DNA of 64,000 nt from an uncultured Desulfatitalea sp. (lineage in GTDB: Bacteria > Desulfobacterota > Desulfobacteria > Desulfobacterales > Desulfosarcinaceae), in assembly GCA_937868765.1 (NCBI GenBank), contig CALMNL010000003.1, positions 1 through 64,000 on the forward strand. Direction: 5' to 3'. The translations under genes and the position numbers were made by a program. Position 1 is the first letter of the stretch; each line of letters opens with the position of its first letter. The notes under the pieces were generated by a model. It was not told the DNA's origin. It was given only the letters and a program-made list of their open reading frames with translations, and did no database searches. Below are positions 27,336 to 35,889 of the stretch, piece by piece.

Positions 27336-29108
27336 CTAAACTTCCTTGAATCGCCAATAAGGAAAATCCAGTTCATACTGGGCCACGGGGCCGGGCGAGG
27401 ACTCGCGGCTGGCCACCATCCACAGGATGCTTTTGCGCGCCTGGGTCGTGACCGGGGCCATGGGGTCCCAGTCCGGCATCAGGATCAGCGCATTATCGGC
27501 GCTGTATTCGATATCGCCCGACTCCTTGAAAGAACTCAGGTCCGGCTTTTCGCCGTATCCGCCGCCCTTGCCGCGGGTCAACTCGCTGATCACCAGAAAG
27601 CAGGCATTGTATTCGTCCCTGATGGCTTCCAGCTGCCGCAGCCAGGAATCGATGCCCGTGCGCCGTTCCGTCAGATCCTTGAAGGGCAGCTTGTGGAGGC
27701 TGTCCACCACGATGAGCAGATCATCTTTGCGCGTTTCGTGGCGGATGAAGTCGATGTGCCGGCGCATGGTGTCCGGAGTCAACTGGCGGTCATTGACCAC
27801 CCGGAAGCAGGGGAGCAGCGTCTGGAACTCACCCAGCGCCTTATCGAGGCTTTGCTTCTCCTCTCCGGTGAGCCCCCCGGCGCGGATCCGTTTTTCCGAC
27901 AGGCGACTCAGCCTCACCAGGGTGCGCATGTAGATCTTCTGGCGGCCGTTTTCAAAATCGTAGTAGATCACCGGCACGGAGCGGCGTGCCACTTCCGACG
28001 AGATCTGCATGAAGAAACACGATTTGCCGGCCTTGGGCGGGCCCCCCATGATGTTGATGCCCCGCAGGCCGTCCAGATGCCGATCCATCTTTTCGAACCC
28101 GGTGGCCAAGCCGGGCATCTCTTTGCCACTTTCCTTTTCGAGCAGGGAGATAAAGCGCTCGCGCTCTTTTTCCGGGGAAGCAAACGGCGAAAAGGCTTTG
28201 GACCACCGGATCATCTGTTGAACCGCTTTGGGCATCTCTGCCGCCGGGTCCGCGGCCAGATGGGGCAGGTCCTCTCCCCTTTTGATCCGGCCCGGCCATG
28301 ACAGAATGCGGGCCTTGAAGCCTGCCACCACGGCAAACTCCCGGGCGGCCAGGCGGGCTTCGGGGGTATTGGGCACCAGCAGAAAGAGGTGGGCGATGCG
28401 TGCCAGCCGTTCGGACCTCAGGTTGGCGATCTGGTCGATGGATGGGACGGCAATGGCCGGGTACCCCAGTTCCTTGAGAATCAGGGCATTGAGTTCGCTG
28501 GTGGTGATGAACAGCGCCCCGCCTTCGCAGCGGCCGATCTCCCGGGCATTGAAGACCGCCGCTTCGCCGCTGAAGAAGCTCTCGTCGCCGTGCCAGAATT
28601 GATCCTGCTCCCTTCCCGGCAGCACGCAGTGGGCGGCGTAGGCAAACCCGCTCTCCTGAAAATAAGGGTAGACCAGGTAGCGGCCGTTGAATCCCACGCG
28701 CATCTGTTTGAGGGTGTTCTCCGAAACGCCATATTGGCCGAAGTATCCATACTGATCGGCGCTCATCAGGGCGGCGAACTTGTCCAATTCGACGCCCAGA
28801 TGGCGGGACGGGTAATTCTGGTTGAGGGCATAGGCGTCGGCATCGGGATCGAAGCCCGGCACCTGATGGCCGGTGATATCCATCATCCGCGCGAAGTGGG
28901 CATGAAACCCCCCGGGCACACAGTCGTTCTGGCAGCGGAAGTGACCGCGAAAGTAGCTTTCCGGATTGAGCAGGACCACCAGCCGGCCGGGCTTCTCTTT
29001 TTTTTGCCGGTTGCATATGGGGCAGGGGGCGATCAGATGGGCGCCTTTCCAGGTGGCTTCGGGCAAATGGGCTTCATAGAAGGCCTTGATCTGTTCGAAG
29101 GGGATCAT
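27336..29108 (-). CDS. Primase-helicase fusion (Twinkle / T7 gp4-like)
   Basis: This 590-residue protein begins with a Cys2-Cys2 zinc ribbon like that of DnaG-type primases (CPIC near 29, CQNDC near 59). A TOPRIM-like region follows (about 190-260, ALFITTSELNALILKELG). The C-terminal half is a RecA/DnaB-type helicase core (about 320-560) with Walker A GGPPKAGKS, Walker B LLIVVDS and a later arginine-bearing segment. The DnaB/DnaG pair of the cell is usually encoded by separate genes, so this looks like an accessory or mobile-element-derived replication protein. No phage or plasmid genes flank it. The TOPRIM acidic residues are only partly evident, so primase activity is uncertain. The start is at 29108 (MIPFEQIKAF). 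Confidence 0.75.
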   Translation of the reverse strand: MIPFEQIKAFYEAHLPEATWKGAHLIAPCPICNRQKKEKPGRLVVLLNPESYFRGHFRCQNDCVPGGFHAHFARMMDITGHQVPGFDPDADAYALNQNYPSRHLGVELDKFAALMSADQYGYFGQYGVSENTLKQMRVGFNGRYLVYPYFQESGFAYAAHCVLPGREQDQFWHGDESFFSGEAAVFNAREIGRCEGGALFITTSELNALILKELGYPAIAVPSIDQIANLRSERLARIAHLFLLVPNTPEARLAAREFAVVAGFKARILSWPGRIKRGEDLPHLAADPAAEMPKAVQQMIRWSKAFSPFASPEKERERFISLLEKESGKEMPGLATGFEKMDRHLDGLRGINIMGGPPKAGKSCFFMQISSEVARRSVPVIYYDFENGRQKIYMRTLVRLSRLSEKRIRAGGLTGEEKQSLDKALGEFQTLLPCFRVVNDRQLTPDTMRRHIDFIRHETRKDDLLIVVDSLHKLPFKDLTERRTGIDSWLRQLEAIRDEYNACFLVISELTRGKGGGYGEKPDLSSFKESGDIEYSADNALILMPDWDPMAPVTTQARKSILWMVASRESSPGPVAQYELDFPYWRFKEV

Positions 29109-29334
29109 GATGCCTGTTCCTTTTCTTTCGTTGGGGCGACTTCGGTATTCGAAGTGCGCCCACTGCATCCAGAGGATGGGCGTGCGGGGGCATTATAGGC
29201 CGTGCTTCCGAAGTTGTAAACAAAGCACCTGGAAGCCTGCCGACGGCCCATGGAAGTCGGAGGTGGTATCGTGCCACCCGCGGTGGGGTAAACAGGAAAA
29301 AGAAAAGCGGAAAGGAGAGTTCAGCAGGCGGCCG

Positions 29335-30198
29335 CTATTCCACCTGCTGGATGCCTTCCAGAATCCAGAAATCCTCGGGCCGGTGGGCGTCACGGCTGAA
29401 ATGCCACAATTCTCGCACCTGTTTGGCCGTCCGGTCGCCGTTTTCCCGCAGCATGGCGTCGTAGAGAACGGTGGCCACGGTCTGCTGGTCGATGTCGCGC
29501 ACTTCTACGATGCGGCAGTCGACCATCAGGACTTCGGTTTTGCCGGGATGGGGATCTTCTTGGGCTTGGCGCTGGATTTCGGCGAACACTTCGGTGGAAG
29601 TGAACTGCCGGATGTCGTCGAGATCGCGCTTGTCCCAGGAGACCTGTAGTCTGTTGAAGATGGCTGTGGCACCCTTCTGGAACTCCTCGGCATCAAAACC
29701 CGGGGGCAGGGCGGGCAGTGGCGGCGGTTCACCGTCCGGGGTATATCCCGACTCGCCCCAGCCCTGGCCGGAGCCGCTGTAGAGCGAAGCCGGTATGGAC
29801 GTTTGGGCGGCCATCTGCCGGGCGCGCAGAAAGCGCATCAGGAGTATGAGGCCGCCGCCGATCAGCAGCAGATCCATCAGGCCCGGGCCGCCGAATCCAT
29901 GGCCGCCGCCAAAGAGCAGGGAGCCGATGAGGCCGCCCATGAGAAATCCGCCCAGCATGCCGCCCCAGCGACTGGTCGTCGGCGCTGCCATGCCCGGCTG
30001 GCTGCCGGGAGCGGGTTTGGCTTGGGTGGTGGTCGGGTTCTGGGCCGGCGCCGGGGCGCTGCGTTGATAGGTGGGGCGGCTGCCGAACGAACGGCTGCGG
30101 CCGAAGCGGGCCGCCTCGGCCGTATCGTGCCATAGGTAAAGCAGGGCCGTGGCAAAGCATAGAACCAGAAGGATAGAAAACGGTGCGCTCTTTTTCAT
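29335..30198 (-). CDS. Tim44-domain membrane protein under a Mn2+ riboswitch
   Basis: This 287-residue protein has an N-terminal membrane anchor or signal (about 4-30) and a Pro/Ala-rich linker (about 48-75). Glycine-rich hydrophobic segments follow (about 83-125, GGFLMGGLIGSLLFGGG). The C-terminal Tim44-like domain (about 160-285) contains ATAIFNRLQVSWDKRDLDDI and FWILEGIQQVE. Bacterial Tim44-domain proteins bind membranes or partner proteins, and their roles are poorly known. The start is at 30198, after GGGGAGA. Its leader contains a yybP-ykoY riboswitch, terminator and promoter, so expression should rise with Mn2+. That suggests a link to manganese export or Mn-stress, which the protein sequence alone would not reveal. 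Confidence 0.82.
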   Translation of the reverse strand: MKKSAPFSILLVLCFATALLYLWHDTAEAARFGRSRSFGSRPTYQRSAPAPAQNPTTTQAKPAPGSQPGMAAPTTSRWGGMLGGFLMGGLIGSLLFGGGHGFGGPGLMDLLLIGGGLILLMRFLRARQMAAQTSIPASLYSGSGQGWGESGYTPDGEPPPLPALPPGFDAEEFQKGATAIFNRLQVSWDKRDLDDIRQFTSTEVFAEIQRQAQEDPHPGKTEVLMVDCRIVEVRDIDQQTVATVLYDAMLRENGDRTAKQVRELWHFSRDAHRPEDFWILEGIQQVE

Positions 30199-30209
30199 GA
30201 GGTCTCCCC

Positions 30210-30254
30210 AAAAAAAAACCTTTGCCCGCCTCCGACAACCGGAGCGGGTAAAGG
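30210..30254 (-). terminator. Riboswitch-controlled intrinsic terminator
   Basis: On the minus strand a stem of about 14-16 bases with one bulge or mismatch (30219-30254) is followed by nine U (30210-30218). It ends 11 bases before the ATG. Its 5' arm begins with CCUUUA, which is also the 3' strand of the riboswitch P1 helix. Terminator and ligand-bound aptamer are therefore mutually exclusive. Confidence 0.85.
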
Positions 30255-30362
30255 TCTGGCAAATGGCGATTGGTGTCGCGATCCCGCCTCCGGATGGCAC
30301 AGCCATCGTATTGACGAAGGGCGGGCCGGTGATTGGATCGGCCGGATGCTACTCCCCTTTAT
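30249..30362 (-). promoter_or_regulatory. yybP-ykoY (Mn2+) riboswitch aptamer
   Basis: The minus-strand RNA has the conserved blocks of this class in order. AAAGGGGAGUAGC (30348-30360) comes first, then CGUCAAUACG (30307-30316). Next is a hairpin GAUGGC-UGU-GCCAUC followed by CCGG, then a small GCGA/UCGC hairpin, and last GCCAGACCUUUA (30249-30260). The first and last blocks form P1 (AAAGG with CCUUU). The order and wording match the Bacillus subtilis yybP leader closely. Mn2+ binding should stabilise P1 and stop the overlapping terminator from forming, giving an ON switch. Confidence 0.92.
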
Positions 30363-30370
30363 AGGCGGCG

Positions 30371-30399
30371 ATCCTAAATAAACCCTCGGCCGGTGTCAA
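30371..30399 (-). promoter_or_regulatory. Sigma-70-type promoter of the Tim44-domain gene
   Basis: On the minus strand, TTGACA (30394-30399), a 17-base spacer and TAGGAT (30371-30376) place the transcript start near 30364, just at the 5' end of the riboswitch. Confidence 0.85.
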
Positions 30400-30441
30400 C
30401 TCAAATCGGCGCCATTCCGTGCAGTTGTCGTTTCTCCCGTG

Positions 30442-30470
30442 TTGACACACCTGGTATAGGTCGTTAAACA
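30442..30470 (+). promoter_or_regulatory. Candidate promoter of the AI-2E-family gene
   Basis: TTGACA (30442-30447), a 17-base spacer and TAAACA (30465-30470) lie 65 bases before the ATG at 30535. The -10 is a moderate match. It is back to back with the riboswitch promoter. Confidence 0.6.
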
Positions 30471-30534
30471 GAATGAGGCATTCTCCTTTTATCCAGTGAA
30501 CCCGTAGTCGAATCTCTTCCGCCGGGAGGCGTCA

Positions 30535-31635
30535 ATGCAGCACCAAGGCATCAACCGATGGGTCCTGATCGCGCTGGTTTTTCTGATATCAGCGCTCTTT
30601 CTGGTAATGATCCGCGAATTTCTCATGGCGCTTTTGCTGGCCGGCATCTTTTCCGCCCTGGCGCAGCCCCTCTTTCGCAAGCTCACGCGCCTGCTGGGCA
30701 ACCGGCCCCGGGCGGCCTCGGGGCTTATGCTGCTGATCTTCTGCCTGGTGGTGCTGGTGCCGCTCTCCGGGCTGGTGGGTATCATCACGGCCCAGGCCCT
30801 GAAGGTGGCCCAATCCGTGACGCCCTGGGTTCAGCGGCAGATCGCCGAACCGGCGGCGTTTTCGCACTACCTGGAGAAGATTCCCTACTACCAGGAGCTG
30901 CTCCCCTATCGCGATCAGATTCTGCGCAAGGCGGGCGAACTGGCCAGCAAACTCAGCATGTTTCTGGTGGATGGGCTTTCCGCGGGCGCCAAGGGGACCG
31001 TCCAGTTCCTCTTCATGTTCTTCGTTTTCCTCTACAGCAGCTTTTTCTTCCTGGTGGATGGCGGAAAACTCCTGGAGCGCATGCTCTACTACCTTCCATT
31101 GCAGGATGCCGACGAACAGCGCCTGCTGAACCGGTTTACTTCGGTGACCCGGGCGACCCTCAAGGGTACGGCGGTGATCGGTCTGCTGCAAGGTTGTCTG
31201 GCCGGTCTGGCCTTCGCCGTGGTGGGCATCGACGCGGCGGTGTTCTGGGGCACGGTGATGACGGCGCTCTCGATCATTCCGGCCCTGGGATCGGCCCTGG
31301 TGTGGGTGCCTGCGGCCATCATCCTGGCGGTGGCCGGCAGTTATTTCAAGGCCATCGGGCTGACCCTCTTTTGCGGACTGATCGTGGGCAGTCTGGACAA
31401 CCTGTTGCGCCCGCGTCTGGTGGGCCAGGACACCCAGATGCACGAGTTGATGATCTTCTTCGGCACCCTGGGCGGCATCGCCCTCTTCGGGCTGATCGGT
31501 TTTGTCATCGGACCGATTATCGCCGCGCTCTTCGTGACCATCTGGGAGATTTACGGCGAGGTGTTCCGCGACTATCTGCCGACGGTGCACCACCCCGCGC
31601 CGGTGAAGGGCAAAAAGCCGAAAAAAGCTTCGTGA
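30535..31635 (+). CDS. AI-2E/PerM-family membrane protein
   Basis: The 366-residue integral membrane protein has about eight hydrophobic segments. The pairs at 10-55 and 70-95 come first, then a loop (about 105-150), then further segments from about 155 to 350. It has the family's QLFLxGxxxG-like conserved area (AVIGLLQGCLAGLAFAVVG) and a C-terminal GGIALFGLIGFVIGPIIAAL. Members have been linked to autoinducer-2 export or Na+/H+ antiport, but most are uncharacterised. GGGAGG precedes the ATG. The Lys-rich tail (KGKKPKKAS) is short. It is divergent from the Mn2+-riboswitch gene, and whether it relates to Mn is unknown. Confidence 0.88.
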   Translation: MQHQGINRWVLIALVFLISALFLVMIREFLMALLLAGIFSALAQPLFRKLTRLLGNRPRAASGLMLLIFCLVVLVPLSGLVGIITAQALKVAQSVTPWVQRQIAEPAAFSHYLEKIPYYQELLPYRDQILRKAGELASKLSMFLVDGLSAGAKGTVQFLFMFFVFLYSSFFFLVDGGKLLERMLYYLPLQDADEQRLLNRFTSVTRATLKGTAVIGLLQGCLAGLAFAVVGIDAAVFWGTVMTALSIIPALGSALVWVPAAIILAVAGSYFKAIGLTLFCGLIVGSLDNLLRPRLVGQDTQMHELMIFFGTLGGIALFGLIGFVIGPIIAALFVTIWEIYGEVFRDYLPTVHHPAPVKGKKPKKAS

Positions 31636-31729: not shown

Positions 31730-34714
31730 TCATAATACCCGCACGCGGTCCACGGTCAGTGTCGCCGCGCCCCAGTTCTGCTCCACCAGGCCGTGGAGCA
31801 GATAGGGCCGGCCGTGGTCCAGCAGATGGCAGAAGCGGTCGTAGGCCTGGGGAAAGAAGGTGGTCTCCAGAAGACCGGTGTCGTCTTCGAAGGTGAGAAA
31901 CTCCATGGGGTCGTCGTGCTTGGTGTGCACCACCTTGCCGGTGATCAGCCAGCCGGCGAAGGCCACGCGGCGGTTTACCCGGCGCACCACTTCGGCGGCC
32001 GTCAGGGCGCCGGCCCGGCGGACCGCATCGTGGAAAAGGGTCATGGGGTGGCGGTCGCACAGGAACCCCAGCACCTTGAACTCCCGGCGCAACCGCTCCC
32101 GGGGATCGTCGGGCGGCAGTGCCGGCGGGGCGATGGCCGCCGGATCGTCGAACAGCGGCAAGGCGCCCTGGGCGGCCTTGCGTCCGGCATGCCACCGGGC
32201 CAGCAGCCAGAGCAGTTGCGCCCGGTGATGCATGGGCGCCAGAGAGTCCAGGGCGCCGCACAGGATCAGGGCCCGGGCTTCGGCCTGGTCGGGGCGCACC
32301 CGCTGGAAGAAATCGCCGGCATCCCGGAAGGGGCGGCGCCGGCGCTGGGCCAGGATGCATTCCATGGTCGCGGCGGCGAGCCCCTTGACCGCCATCAATC
32401 CCACCCGGATCCTGCCGTGACCACCGCGCCAGCGGATCTGGCTGCACTGCACATCGGGTCCTTCGATGGCGACCCCCAGGCGCCGGGCTTCGGAGACGTA
32501 GGCGAAGGTGCTGTAGTAGCCTCCCTGGTTGCTGATCACGGCCGCCATGAACTCGGCCGGAAAGTGGGCCTTGAGATAGGCGGCCTGGAACGAGACCCGG
32601 GCATAGGAGGCGCTGTGGGGTTTGCAGAACGAATAGAAGGCAAAGCTCATCATCATGGCCCACACCGCTTCGATCTGTTCCGGCGTCACGCCTCTTTCCC
32701 GGGCGCCCTGGGAAAAGCGTTGGTAGTAATCCTGCAGCTTGTGTTCCCGGTCTTTCTGGGCCATCACCTTGCGCAGGCCGTCGGCTGCGGCGTCGTCGAA
32801 GCCAGCCAGGGCCATGGCGGCCCGGGAGACATCCTCCTGGTAGACCATGATGCCGAAAGTTTCGTCCAGCACGTCGGCCAGCAGGGGGTGGATGGGGTCC
32901 CAGGCACCGCCGTGCAGCCGCCGGATGTATTCCTGGATGAAGCGGTTGGCCGCGGGCCGGATGATGCTCGAATGGATCACCAGGTGCTCGAAGTCGCCCA
33001 TGCCGGCCTTTTGCTGGAGCAGCCGCGTGGCCGGGCTCTCGATGTAAAAACACCCCATGGTCCAGCCTTGGGCCAGGAACTCCTGGGTGACCGGGTCCTC
33101 CTCCGGTTCCCAGCCGTGCTCGTCGAAATCCACGCCGTTGAAACGCACGTTATGGATAGCGTCGCGGATGACGGCCAGGCTGCGGTTGCCCAAAAGGTCG
33201 ATCTTCACCAGTCCGGCGCTCTCCGCGGCGTCTTTTTCCCATTGGATGATGGGCACCCCCTTGGCCGCCCGCTCCACCGGCACGTAGTCTTGAATGGAGT
33301 CGGGGGTGATCACCACGCCGCCGGGGTGGACCGACAGGTAGCGGGGGATGCCCAGCAACTGCCGGGCCAGGGCCAGAATCTGCGGCCAGGGATCGTCCAG
33401 GGCCAGCTCCCGGGTCTCCGGGTGGCGCTTGAGGTCGGCCAGCAGGTCGGCCTTTTCGTGGGAGTGCCAGAACCAGGGCAGTCGTCCGGTCACCCGGCCG
33501 ATTTCGGCATCGGTCAGGCCGAACACCTTGGCGGTTTCCCGTACGGCCATGCGCGGCTGAAACAGGATGTGGCTGGAGACCATGGCGGCCCGTTCGCCGT
33601 ACTGGTCCAGCACGCTTTGGATCACGGCATCGCGTTCGTCCCAGGCGAAGTCCACGTCGATGTCGGGCGGGTCCTTGCGGCCGGGGTTCAGGAAGCGGCC
33701 GAAGTAGAGGTTGTGCTTGACCGGGCAGACATTGGTGATCCCCAGGCAGTAGGCCACCAGGGAGGCGGCGCCCGAGCCCCGGCCGCAGGTGCGCGGGCTG
33801 CGTCGAACGATGTCGCGCACATTGAGAAAGTAGGATGAAAAGTTCATCCGGGCGATGGTGCGCAGTTCGTGCTCCAGGCGATCCACCATCGGTTCGGGCA
33901 GGTCGTCGCCGTAGCGGCTCCGGGCGCCCTCGTACGCATCCAGGCGCAGGGCGGCGTCGGCACCGTGCCCCCGGGCGTCCTGCCAGGGCGGCATCACCAG
34001 GCCGAAGGCGGGGCCGGTAAAAGTGATCCGGTCGGCCAGGGCCCGGGTGTGGGCGACGGCCTCGGGGCAGGCGGCAAAGCGTTCGGCATAGAGCTGGGGC
34101 GACGCCAGCCAGGCATTGGCCGGCGCCACCTGATCGGCTGGCAGGCGCTCCAGGGTGGTGTTCAGATCGATGGCCCGCAGCAGGCGGTGGAGGAGGTGCT
34201 CCTCGGGGTGCAGGAAGAAGCTGCCCGGCGTGGCCACCAGGGGGAGGCCCAGCTCGCGCGCGGTCCGGCGCAGGGGGTGGGTGGGGGCCAGGGGCGCCCG
34301 GGGCATGGCCGCGGCCAGATCCACGCCGGCCCGGTGCCAGCGGGCCAGCAGATCGACGTCGGAGACGAGTACGATCAAGCCCCGGGCATGGGCCGGCAAG
34401 TCCGCGGCCAGGTCGAAATCGGCGGCCATATGGCGCCGGGTGAGCAGGCGGCACAAGTTGGCGTACCCGGACTGCTCGGCCACCAGGCAGACGGCCCGGC
34501 GGGGGCGGCGCGGATCGGTGACCTCGGCGCCCACGATGGGGGTGAGACCTTCCCGGCCGCAGGTTTCCAAAAAAGGCCACAGGCCATAGAGATTGTTCGT
34601 GTCGGTGAGGGCCAGGCGGGTGTAGCCCAGTTCCCGGGCCTGCCGGCACAGCCGGCGGACCGAGGCCGTGCCCCAGAGCAGCGAATGGTGGGAGCGGACG
34701 GTGAGGGGTATCAT
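31730..34714 (-). CDS. dnaE2: Error-prone DNA polymerase III alpha subunit (ImuC/DnaE2)
   Basis: This 994-residue protein is a C-family polymerase with an N-terminal PHP domain, the palm/fingers region with the catalytic PDIDVDF motif (about 349-355), helix-hairpin-helix elements and a C-terminal OB-fold. The PHP entry motif reads TVRSHHSLLWG, where replicative DnaE usually has a fuller HxHS motif, so the PHP metal site is probably degenerate. The length is shorter than replicative DnaE (about 1150) and fits DnaE2/ImuC. It performs translesion synthesis in the SOS response together with ImuB. It starts six bases after the imuB stop, so the two are co-transcribed. The start at 34714 is chosen on that basis. 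Confidence 0.93.
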   Translation of the reverse strand: MIPLTVRSHHSLLWGTASVRRLCRQARELGYTRLALTDTNNLYGLWPFLETCGREGLTPIVGAEVTDPRRPRRAVCLVAEQSGYANLCRLLTRRHMAADFDLAADLPAHARGLIVLVSDVDLLARWHRAGVDLAAAMPRAPLAPTHPLRRTARELGLPLVATPGSFFLHPEEHLLHRLLRAIDLNTTLERLPADQVAPANAWLASPQLYAERFAACPEAVAHTRALADRITFTGPAFGLVMPPWQDARGHGADAALRLDAYEGARSRYGDDLPEPMVDRLEHELRTIARMNFSSYFLNVRDIVRRSPRTCGRGSGAASLVAYCLGITNVCPVKHNLYFGRFLNPGRKDPPDIDVDFAWDERDAVIQSVLDQYGERAAMVSSHILFQPRMAVRETAKVFGLTDAEIGRVTGRLPWFWHSHEKADLLADLKRHPETRELALDDPWPQILALARQLLGIPRYLSVHPGGVVITPDSIQDYVPVERAAKGVPIIQWEKDAAESAGLVKIDLLGNRSLAVIRDAIHNVRFNGVDFDEHGWEPEEDPVTQEFLAQGWTMGCFYIESPATRLLQQKAGMGDFEHLVIHSSIIRPAANRFIQEYIRRLHGGAWDPIHPLLADVLDETFGIMVYQEDVSRAAMALAGFDDAAADGLRKVMAQKDREHKLQDYYQRFSQGARERGVTPEQIEAVWAMMMSFAFYSFCKPHSASYARVSFQAAYLKAHFPAEFMAAVISNQGGYYSTFAYVSEARRLGVAIEGPDVQCSQIRWRGGHGRIRVGLMAVKGLAAATMECILAQRRRRPFRDAGDFFQRVRPDQAEARALILCGALDSLAPMHHRAQLLWLLARWHAGRKAAQGALPLFDDPAAIAPPALPPDDPRERLRREFKVLGFLCDRHPMTLFHDAVRRAGALTAAEVVRRVNRRVAFAGWLITGKVVHTKHDDPMEFLTFEDDTGLLETTFFPQAYDRFCHLLDHGRPYLLHGLVEQNWGAATLTVDRVRVL

Positions 34715-34719
34715 GGTCG

Positions 34720-35889
34720 TCAGCCTGCCAGGCGCCCCATCCGGACGGCCTCCATGCCGAACCGGTCCCGGATGCGGTCCATGGCCGCCACGAGGTGCTC
34801 CCGGCGCAGCACGTGTCGCCGCTCTTCTTCGAACAGCGGCAGCTGGGCCGGCGGAAAGATCAGCCGGTCGCAGACCAGGCGCAGGTGGCGCACCCGGGTG
34901 CGCCGGACCACGGCCAGGTGCAGGACGCGGCGGGCCAGGTCGAACAGGGCCAGGTCGTTGGCCGTGGGCGGTTCCACGCGCATCTGGCGCACCGCGCGCC
35001 GGCCGTCGCTGTAGTCGGCGGTGACGGCGATGCGCCGGGCCACGCGGCCTTGCCGGCGCAGCTGCCGGCCGGCGGTTTCCACCATCGGGTAGAGCCGCGC
35101 CTCCAGCACGGCCGGGTCGTGGGTGTCGGTCGCCAGGGTCTGGTTGACTTCCACCCGCGGCGGCTTCTGGCCCAGAGGCAGGACCGGCGCTTCGTCCCGA
35201 CCGCGCAGGGCGGCGGCCACACATGCGGCCCGGGATCCCAGGGCCACCTCCAGGTGGGCCGGGTCGAGGGCCGTCACCTGGTGCACTCGGGTGAGGTTCA
35301 GTTCGCGCAGCCGGGAGAGGTCGGGCCCTTCGACGCCCGGCACCAGCCACACCGGCAGGGGCGACAGAAACGCCTCTTCGTCGCCGGGGGCCACGATGTA
35401 TTCGCCCTGGGGTTTGACCAGGCGCGAGGCCACCTTGGCCACCAGTTTGTTGGCGGCCAAGGTCCAGATGGGGTCCAGACCCAGGGCCTGCAGGGTGCGG
35501 CGACGCAGGCGCCAGGCCACATCCACGGGCGGTCCGAAGAGGCGGCTGGTGCCGGTGACATCCACGAAGAGGTGGCCGTCCTGCTCGCCGGGCTCGATGA
35601 GCGGCGAGTAGGTGCGGGCCTGGCCCAGCAGGTCGGCCATGGCCTGCTCGTAGCGGGCCGGCTGGGGCGGCCGGACCGCCAGGTCGCGGCACAGGCGCGT
35701 GGCCCGGGAAAGGGGCATGCCCTTGCGCACGCCGGCCTGGTAGGCCTCGTCGCTCATGTCGTAGACCACCGCCCGGGCGGCGGTCGGGGCGGCGATGACC
35801 AGGGGCCGGCGGTCCAGGCGGCGGTCCAGGCGGCGCTCGACGGCGGCGGCGAAGTCGGCGATGTTGAGGTGGATGATGGCGCGGTCCAT
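34720..35889 (-). CDS. imuB: ImuB-like inactive Y-family polymerase homologue
   Basis: The 389-residue protein has the overall Y-family (DinB/UmuC) plan but lacks catalytic acids. Where active enzymes read DMD, this one has HLNIADF (N9 in the place of the first Asp). The SxDE motif is replaced by DGHLF before VDVTG. This is the hallmark of ImuB, which serves as an adaptor and not as a polymerase. A beta-clamp-binding motif QLPLF lies at 349-353, so it can bring the DnaE2 partner to the clamp. It is shorter than many ImuB proteins (about 500 residues) and ends 36 residues after the motif. It lies upstream of dnaE2 in the same transcript. Confidence 0.88.
   Translation of the reverse strand: MDRAIIHLNIADFAAAVERRLDRRLDRRPLVIAAPTAARAVVYDMSDEAYQAGVRKGMPLSRATRLCRDLAVRPPQPARYEQAMADLLGQARTYSPLIEPGEQDGHLFVDVTGTSRLFGPPVDVAWRLRRRTLQALGLDPIWTLAANKLVAKVASRLVKPQGEYIVAPGDEEAFLSPLPVWLVPGVEGPDLSRLRELNLTRVHQVTALDPAHLEVALGSRAACVAAALRGRDEAPVLPLGQKPPRVEVNQTLATDTHDPAVLEARLYPMVETAGRQLRRQGRVARRIAVTADYSDGRRAVRQMRVEPPTANDLALFDLARRVLHLAVVRRTRVRHLRLVCDRLIFPPAQLPLFEEERRHVLRREHLVAAMDRIRDRFGMEAVRMGRLAG

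Follow-up and report, generated by a model that had tools for sequence, protein, structure and literature searches.

What controls the expression of a gene for a Tim44-domain membrane protein in an uncultured Desulfatitalea, and is its leader a metal sensor? In the stretch of 64,000 nucleotides analysed here (the window), this gene of 287 aa occupies positions 29335-30198 on the minus strand, with its ATG at 30198 and a stop codon ending at 29335. A first-pass annotation, made from the letters alone, had placed upstream of it a promoter, a yybP-ykoY (Mn2+) aptamer and an overlapping terminator, and had suggested that the product may be a new Mn-linked membrane protein. A longer open frame from 30306 was also considered as the gene; it was rejected because it spans the leader and the N-termini of the relatives start at the position equivalent to 30198.

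An AI-2E-family transporter gene (30535-31635, plus strand) diverges from the Tim44 gene and lies beside it in two (L001 and L012) of 15 relative loci. Some 170 nt beyond the Tim44 gene, in the same orientation, 27336-29168 codes for a protein whose C-terminal domain is of the DnaB-like helicase type; among the 15 relative loci, some of them short, it was found in one (L001). To the eye, the region 31730-35889 (minus strand) resembles a mutagenesis cassette, with an ImuB-like Y-family protein ahead of a DnaE-type polymerase.

Architecture of the leader

All the elements of the leader lie on the minus strand. A sigma-70-type promoter can be read at 30371-30399, as the first-pass annotation had it: TTGACA (30399-30394), a spacer of 17 nt and TAGGAT (30376-30371), the -10 box ending 9 nt upstream of the P1 5' strand. 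It is the single promoter-like site in 29200-30700, and it represents weak evidence on its own since shuffled sequences already give 0.4 such sites on average.

The putative aptamer, 113 nt long and comprising helices P1-P4, spans 30249-30361 and was assigned with the Rfam model RF00080, with our own models R1 and R2 described below, and by covariation. The blocks on which the class had been proposed are present, namely AAAGGGGAGUAGC (from 30360), CGUCAAUACG (30316-30307) and GCCAGACCUUUA (to 30249). The core of the L1 loop, GGAGUAGC, lies at 30348-30355, with GGAGUA at 30355-30350, and the L3 bulge UCAAUAC at 30308-30314, where A30312 aligns with the Mn2+-contacting A41 of the Lactococcus lactis riboswitch (UCA41AU43UC). 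The P1 3' strand, CCUUUA (30249-30254), is the switch strand: five of its six nucleotides fall within the 5' arm of an intrinsic terminator hairpin (30218-30255, -22.7 kcal/mol) followed by nine U (30218-30210), so the double use of this arm noticed at first reading is borne out. The hairpin is absent from the list of a simple terminator scan, probably because its stem is interrupted, and the stability of the whole leader as a single fold is unremarkable (z -1.15). The U tract is immediately followed by a Shine-Dalgarno sequence, GGGGAG (30204-30209), with the ATG 5 nt further downstream.

This layout of P1-P4 is that of the yybP-ykoY riboswitches (RF00080) of L. lactis, of Escherichia coli mntP and alx, and of Bacillus subtilis meeY/ykoY. 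The window keeps the class features L1 GGGGAGUAGC, the L3 bulge with its invariant A and AGACC at the P1 3' strand, and its L3, UCAAUAC, is one base apart from the UCAAUUC of L. lactis. A terminator platform overlapping P1 is likewise described for the L. lactis riboswitch in the available text of PMC11087558. In contrast to other members of the class, the window leader scores under the RF00080 cut-off and its gene encodes a Tim44-domain protein, not a transporter. Judged by structural class, the leader is very probably a yybP-ykoY riboswitch, with Mn2+ as its predicted ligand.

Detection by RF00080 and by dedicated models

A scan of the aptamer with RF00080, suggested at first reading as a check, gave 21 bits (E = 6e-4 in a 401-nt scan), below the gathering cut-off of 45, a score that is a curator's threshold and not a structural definition. 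Taken literally, this goes against the assignment, a score under the threshold having been named at first reading as a refuting outcome. Controls showed that this test is nearly blind here. At the gathering score, Rfam gave no match over the whole window, and at E<=0.001 RF00080 gave none over the window's own whole genome; at E<=1, four aptamers that reading or a motif search had revealed were not picked up by Rfam. Of 20 aptamer loci (61 kb), RF00080 matched a single one at E<=10, and this was not the window's. The same held for established members: RF00080 of Rfam 15 gave E. coli mntP 41.6 bits, which falls short of its cut-off of 45, and did not report the alx leader at E<=1 (the E. coli K-12 stretches concerned in this mntP/alx control are L140:962-1072 and L141:1876-1999). 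In 14 named control genomes, which supplied all data from outside the window's phylum, RF00080 had matches in five, above the cut-off in two. We also observed that the printed consensus structure of Rfam 15 RF00080 has no P1 pairing. As mntP, alx and most aptamer loci are missed as well, the low score of the window is largely a limit of RF00080, a model that appears to need rebuilding.

Because Rfam found nothing at these thresholds in the window or its genome and missed the four aptamers, we built our own models. Relatives of the Tim44 protein were taken from four loci of named genomes (the closest being Desulfobacterales, Desulfobacteraceae and Deltaproteobacteria MAGs) and from a search of 291 genomes of the same class, which gave a match in 38, the window's genome included. 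The same motif blocks were found in the leaders of four close relatives, L001 and L002 by reading and L007 and L009 by motif search; L011 is apparently the same contig as L002. Model R1 is the P1-P4 structure written from the window and these four leaders, and its survey yielded 14 aptamers in 13 of the 291 genomes. Model R2 was built from 15 sequences, all of the window's group (the 14 R1 aptamers plus L001), and found 15 aptamers in 14 of the 291 genomes, plus one more in the L063 leader of genome G102. In a draw of 247 genomes from the phylum, R2 found 28 aptamers, the window's included, in 25. The class and phylum draws share several genomes, and taken together they give, for the window's phylum, at least 43 distinct aptamers from 39 genomes; all these counts are minimum values, obtained with strict filters and with the best 12 to 15 candidates scored per genome. 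Within that same limit, the only aptamer reported in the window's own genome is that of the window, which scores 122.3 bits with R1 and 108.8 bits with R2 as a member of both training sets.

With filters off, R2 was also run on two 4-kb stretches of E. coli K-12, where alx was the best of 24 matches (33.0 bits, E 9.5e-8) and mntP the second (27.2 bits, E 3.5e-6), both lying immediately ahead of the annotated genes; under default filters R2 missed mntP. Both leaders are reported Mn-sensing riboswitches (PMC9603457, available text).

Conservation and covariation of the aptamer

The 43 distinct aptamers and L001 were aligned in 44 rows. Double changes occurred in 23 of 27 pairs, amounting to 223 cells as against a mean of 66 in shuffled alignments; none of 500 shuffles scored as high in pair covariation, and no slid version came close. 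In all, 93.7% of the cells pair, with values between 85.1 and 99.2% for the six helical segments, figures that are favoured by an alignment fitted to the structure; for that reason, more weight belongs to the slid controls and the compensatory counts. Together with the presence of the same element in relatives, this covariation upholds the class assignment of the first-pass annotation.

The positions invariant in all 44 rows include GGAGUA of L1, C30313 and A30312 of L3, and the AGA that precedes the P1 3' strand together with the first C of that strand. The exact sequence GGGGAGUAG is present in 42 rows, and three of the seven L3 positions vary. In solved structures, the adenosine that matches A30312 contacts Mn2+ through its N7 (PMC6754395, available text). 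Overlap of a terminator with the P1 3' strand was scored in 42 of the 44 loci, the exceptions being L096 and L111, and a TTGACA-type promoter-like site lies no more than 60 nt upstream in 35 of the 44.

The Tim44-domain protein

The product of the window gene matches Pfam Tim44 (PF04280) with 59.1 bits, against a cut-off of 29.6. This is its sole Pfam match at E<=0.001, MntP, TerC, GDT1/UPF0016 and P-type ATPase being absent, in agreement with the earlier remark that the controlled gene falls outside the known Mn-exporter families. The protein begins with a signal-like or anchor segment, continues with a Gly-rich hydrophobic pair (about 79-133) and ends in a Tim44 (NTF2-like) domain (about 151-287). 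In an alignment of 16 close relatives (the window included, two from G227) the signal-like N-terminus, the motif FGS.P.Y.RSA, the Gly-rich hydrophobic pair and the C-terminal domain are shared, so that the description of a Tim44-domain protein with Gly-rich hydrophobic segments was accurate.

The predicted structure has a mean pLDDT of 69.4, with 82-95 by blocks for the C-terminal domain. Among solved structures its fold comes closest to human Tim44 (2cw9; Z 12.1, rmsd 3.7, 140 aligned), yeast Tim44 (3qk9; Z 11.7, rmsd 2.9, 121 aligned) and mitoribosomal chains (Z up to 12.9), which we take to be mL45. Other NTF2-like chains, VirB8 and ARC6/PARC6, reach Z 10-12, that is, close to Tim44, and the fold alone therefore shows no function. 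The score with the NCBIfam model of the Tim44/TimA adaptor (NF033779) was 25.1, far below its cut-off of 80, and NF033778 (TimA) was not among the NCBIfam matches listed for the protein, which we therefore assign to a diverged Tim44 subfamily. Hence, while its C-terminal NTF2-like domain is the same as in the other Tim44-like proteins (PF04280; mitochondrial Tim44, mL45 and bacterial TimA), the window protein differs from Tim44 and TimA in its signal-like N-terminus, its Gly-rich hydrophobic pair and its predicted control by a metal riboswitch. Among the 14 named control genomes PF04280 was found in Caulobacter and Lactococcus only, B. subtilis having no match. To our knowledge, bacterial Tim44-domain proteins have no settled function, and none of the papers listed by a literature search on TimA and Caulobacter was informative.

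Genes downstream of the aptamers

A survey of other genomes for Tim44 genes behind this aptamer, also proposed at first reading, was carried out within the window's phylum with our own models and showed that 12 of the 43 aptamers are followed, on their own strand and at no more than 7 kb, by a Tim44 domain. About 0.03 such linkages would be expected by chance, a rough figure that assumes random placement in 4-Mb genomes and ignores relatedness. Tim44 is the first gene in six cases, those of the window, G164, G175, G227, G244 and G102. In the other six it follows TerC (G046), TerC and a short ORF (G017), HtpX-TerC (G439), a P-type cation ATPase (G419), TerC-AI-2E-GDT1 (G528) or, at a distance of 5.7 kb, TerC-UPF0182 (G386). 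The AI-2E gene of the TerC-GDT1-Tim44 riboswitch cluster in G528 is a marginal Pfam match (L129:1779-2771). In G299 an aptamer and a Tim44 gene are close, on opposite strands. As classical (G244, G102) as well as diverged (window, G164, G175, G227) Tim44 types sit behind aptamers, the link spans two subfamilies. The genes beside Tim44 include Bax1-I (in G227, G017 and G268), HtpX, CNNM and P-type ATPase.

The first genes behind the aptamers of the window's class (n=16) are Tim44 in six cases, TerC or DUF475 in seven, a P-type ATPase in two, one of which (G081) was assigned from tblastn pieces, and, for the G047 aptamer, a gene left unassigned, with a formate/nitrite transporter, Band_7 and a P-type ATPase following. 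Outside the class (n=27) they are HtpX (11), P-type ATPase (11, nine of them by BLAST only and those of L108 and G419 by Pfam), TerC (3), GDT1 (1) and a short ORF (1) accompanied, by eye, by a DedA-like gene. The HtpX-type M48 protease is the first gene in L091, L092, L094-L098, L100, L112, L113 and L116. Short ORFs (about 101 aa) whose starts resemble each other and are highly charged were seen after HtpX in L100 (2009-2314) and before the ATPase in L107 (1904-2209). Aptamer-led clusters with both TerC and HtpX genes occur in L054, L055 and L128. A Tim44-TerC-HtpX-MntP cluster, in which no aptamer was found, is present in G085 (L135:2773-6414) and is an Mn cluster with other or undetected control.

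Among the papers listed by our literature searches, we found no report that pairs yybP-ykoY with Tim44, Tim44 with TerC or Tim44 with manganese, nor any of HtpX genes behind an Mn riboswitch. A UPF0016 gene under a yybP-ykoY riboswitch is reported for 328 of 333 screened strains (PMC7380456, available text). The window RNA belongs to a known riboswitch class, and the Tim44 and HtpX targets are provisionally new, since the gene-context lists of Dambach 2015, Price 2015 and Waters 2020 may already hold some of them.

Relatives and genome context without the aptamer

The association is not general. As stated above, Tim44 genes recur behind the aptamers, several of them among TerC, P-type ATPase and GDT1 genes, which lends the proposal of a new Mn-linked protein some comparative support. 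Against it, only 12 of 113 Tim44 matches are linked to an aptamer and 101 are not. Even among the 16 aligned close relatives, the window included, R2 found no aptamer for 11. In the same-genus genomes G059 and G137, the promoter and a terminator-like leader are kept and no aptamer was found. The minus-strand leaders upstream of Tim44 in L012 (from about 2389) and L006 (from about 2380) have a promoter, a hairpin and a T-run and lack the aptamer; a possible AAAGGU/ACCUUU pairing is kept in L012 around a short unrelated hairpin, and either decay or a changed sensor may account for these two leaders. The leader of another close relative (L003:2818-2975) has a long hairpin and a T-run, with no recognisable aptamer. 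The many relatives devoid of the aptamer imply that Mn2+ control of the Tim44 gene would be lineage-variable, though recurrent.

In the window's genome, one TerC and one MntP match were found, neither with an aptamer nearby, and Cation_ATPase_C and GDT1 had no match. The Mn link of the window's Tim44 gene therefore rests on its aptamer and on the evidence from other species.

A predicted transcriptional ON switch

The best explanation of these data is a predicted transcriptional Mn2+ ON switch upstream of the Tim44-domain gene, to which we give a probability of roughly 0.84. Judging by the promoter, RNA polymerase would start a few nt before the P1 5' strand. With plentiful Mn2+ in the cytosol, L1 of the four-helix aptamer would dock on L3 around Mg2+ and Mn2+, and the docked aptamer would keep CCUUUA in P1, block the terminator and allow transcription of the gene. 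With little Mn2+, CCUUUA would instead go into the terminator as part of its 5' arm, and RNA synthesis would end ahead of the ribosome-binding site. Owing to the shared strand, P1 and the terminator are mutually exclusive. In the unliganded fold, the terminator is favoured over a forced P1 by 5.2 kcal/mol, a thermodynamic and not a kinetic value, so that ligand energy would be needed to hold P1, as expected of an ON switch. Such ON switching was shown for the L. lactis riboswitch (PMC11087558, available text), and it is by class membership that we infer Mn2+ as the ligand as well as the sign of the response. The opposite arrangement, an OFF switch, was rejected because the P1 that binding stabilises is the competitor of the terminator.

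Possible roles of the protein and alternative readings

If the gene is induced by Mn2+, what would its product do? SecY, SecDF, HtpX and FtsH co-purify with the TerC proteins of B. subtilis, for which a role in the metalation of exported proteins has been proposed, and meeY is under an Mn-responsive riboswitch (PMC10550928, available text). The protein mL45 is located at the mitoribosome exit and has been linked to membrane insertion via its likeness to Tim44 (PMC5203842, available text). These two observations, the co-purification of TerC with Sec and the likeness to mL45, together with the presence of TerC, HtpX, Bax1-I and Tim44 in Mn riboswitch clusters, led us to propose, tentatively and at clearly less than even odds, that, under high Mn2+, the Tim44-domain protein works at the translocon as a helper of membrane or exported proteins. 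The place of the Tim44 product would be the inner membrane, next to TerC-type Mn transporters and quality-control proteases, where at high Mn2+ it would aid the insertion, metalation or clearance of such proteins. The TerC-secretosome of B. subtilis (MeeF/MeeY, SecY, SecDF, HtpX and FtsH) has a counterpart here insofar as this phylum also has TerC and HtpX together in aptamer-led clusters; by contrast, in the available text no Tim44 protein is listed among the described partners of that complex, and a physical association in the window's group is a prediction. A more specific version seems rather unlikely to us: the protein would be an Mn2+-induced subunit of a secretion or insertion complex with TerC, HtpX and Bax1-I/YccA-type proteins at the translocon, where Mn-dependent proteins would be inserted and metalated, or jammed ones cleared.

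To a translocon-side role we give the same weight as to the reading in which the riboswitch is real and senses Mn2+ while Tim44 is a general membrane-biogenesis factor, useful in many stresses, that was recruited to the switch. This alternative is compatible with the ON switch itself. It accounts well for the large majority of Tim44 matches without an aptamer and for the presence of general quality-control genes, HtpX and Bax1-I, in the same clusters; however, it is harder to reconcile with a linkage that spans two diverged subfamilies of Tim44 and a variety of gene orders beside TerC, ATPase and GDT1.

As for the predicted Mn2+ switch, a yybP fold of shifted specificity would respond to Ca2+, another transition metal or alkaline pH via metal mobilisation, and the Tim44 gene would answer to another cue. 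Variants with altered ion specificity are expected in this class (PMC7266159, available text), P-type cation ATPases are common behind the present aptamers, and L3 has its variable positions. Nevertheless, the near identity of the window L3 with that of L. lactis, the Mn-contacting A kept in every row (PMC6754395, available text) and the presence behind other aptamers of the set of GDT1 and TerC, families with Mn roles, make this improbable. A decaying riboswitch that has lost sensing, its gene being expressed by leaky readthrough, would fit the low RF00080 score and the leaders of G059, G137 and L003 without a recognisable aptamer, yet it is very improbable given that the core of the window is complete, with P1, L1, L3 and the overlapping terminator intact, and that L001, the nearest relative with the element (protein 86% identical), has the same core and platform.

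Implications

In summary, much of this branch of riboswitches escapes the current Rfam model, and the recurrence of Tim44 behind a predicted Mn2+ riboswitch gives this protein a testable role in the handling of membrane proteins under high Mn2+. The frequency of HtpX as first gene outside the window's class (11 of 27) suggests that the Mn regulon may reach from exporters to membrane quality control. If a translocon-side role proved true, bacterial Tim44 would gain a function in metal homeostasis at the translocon, as a counterpart to Tim44 at TIM23 and to mL45 at the mitoribosome exit.
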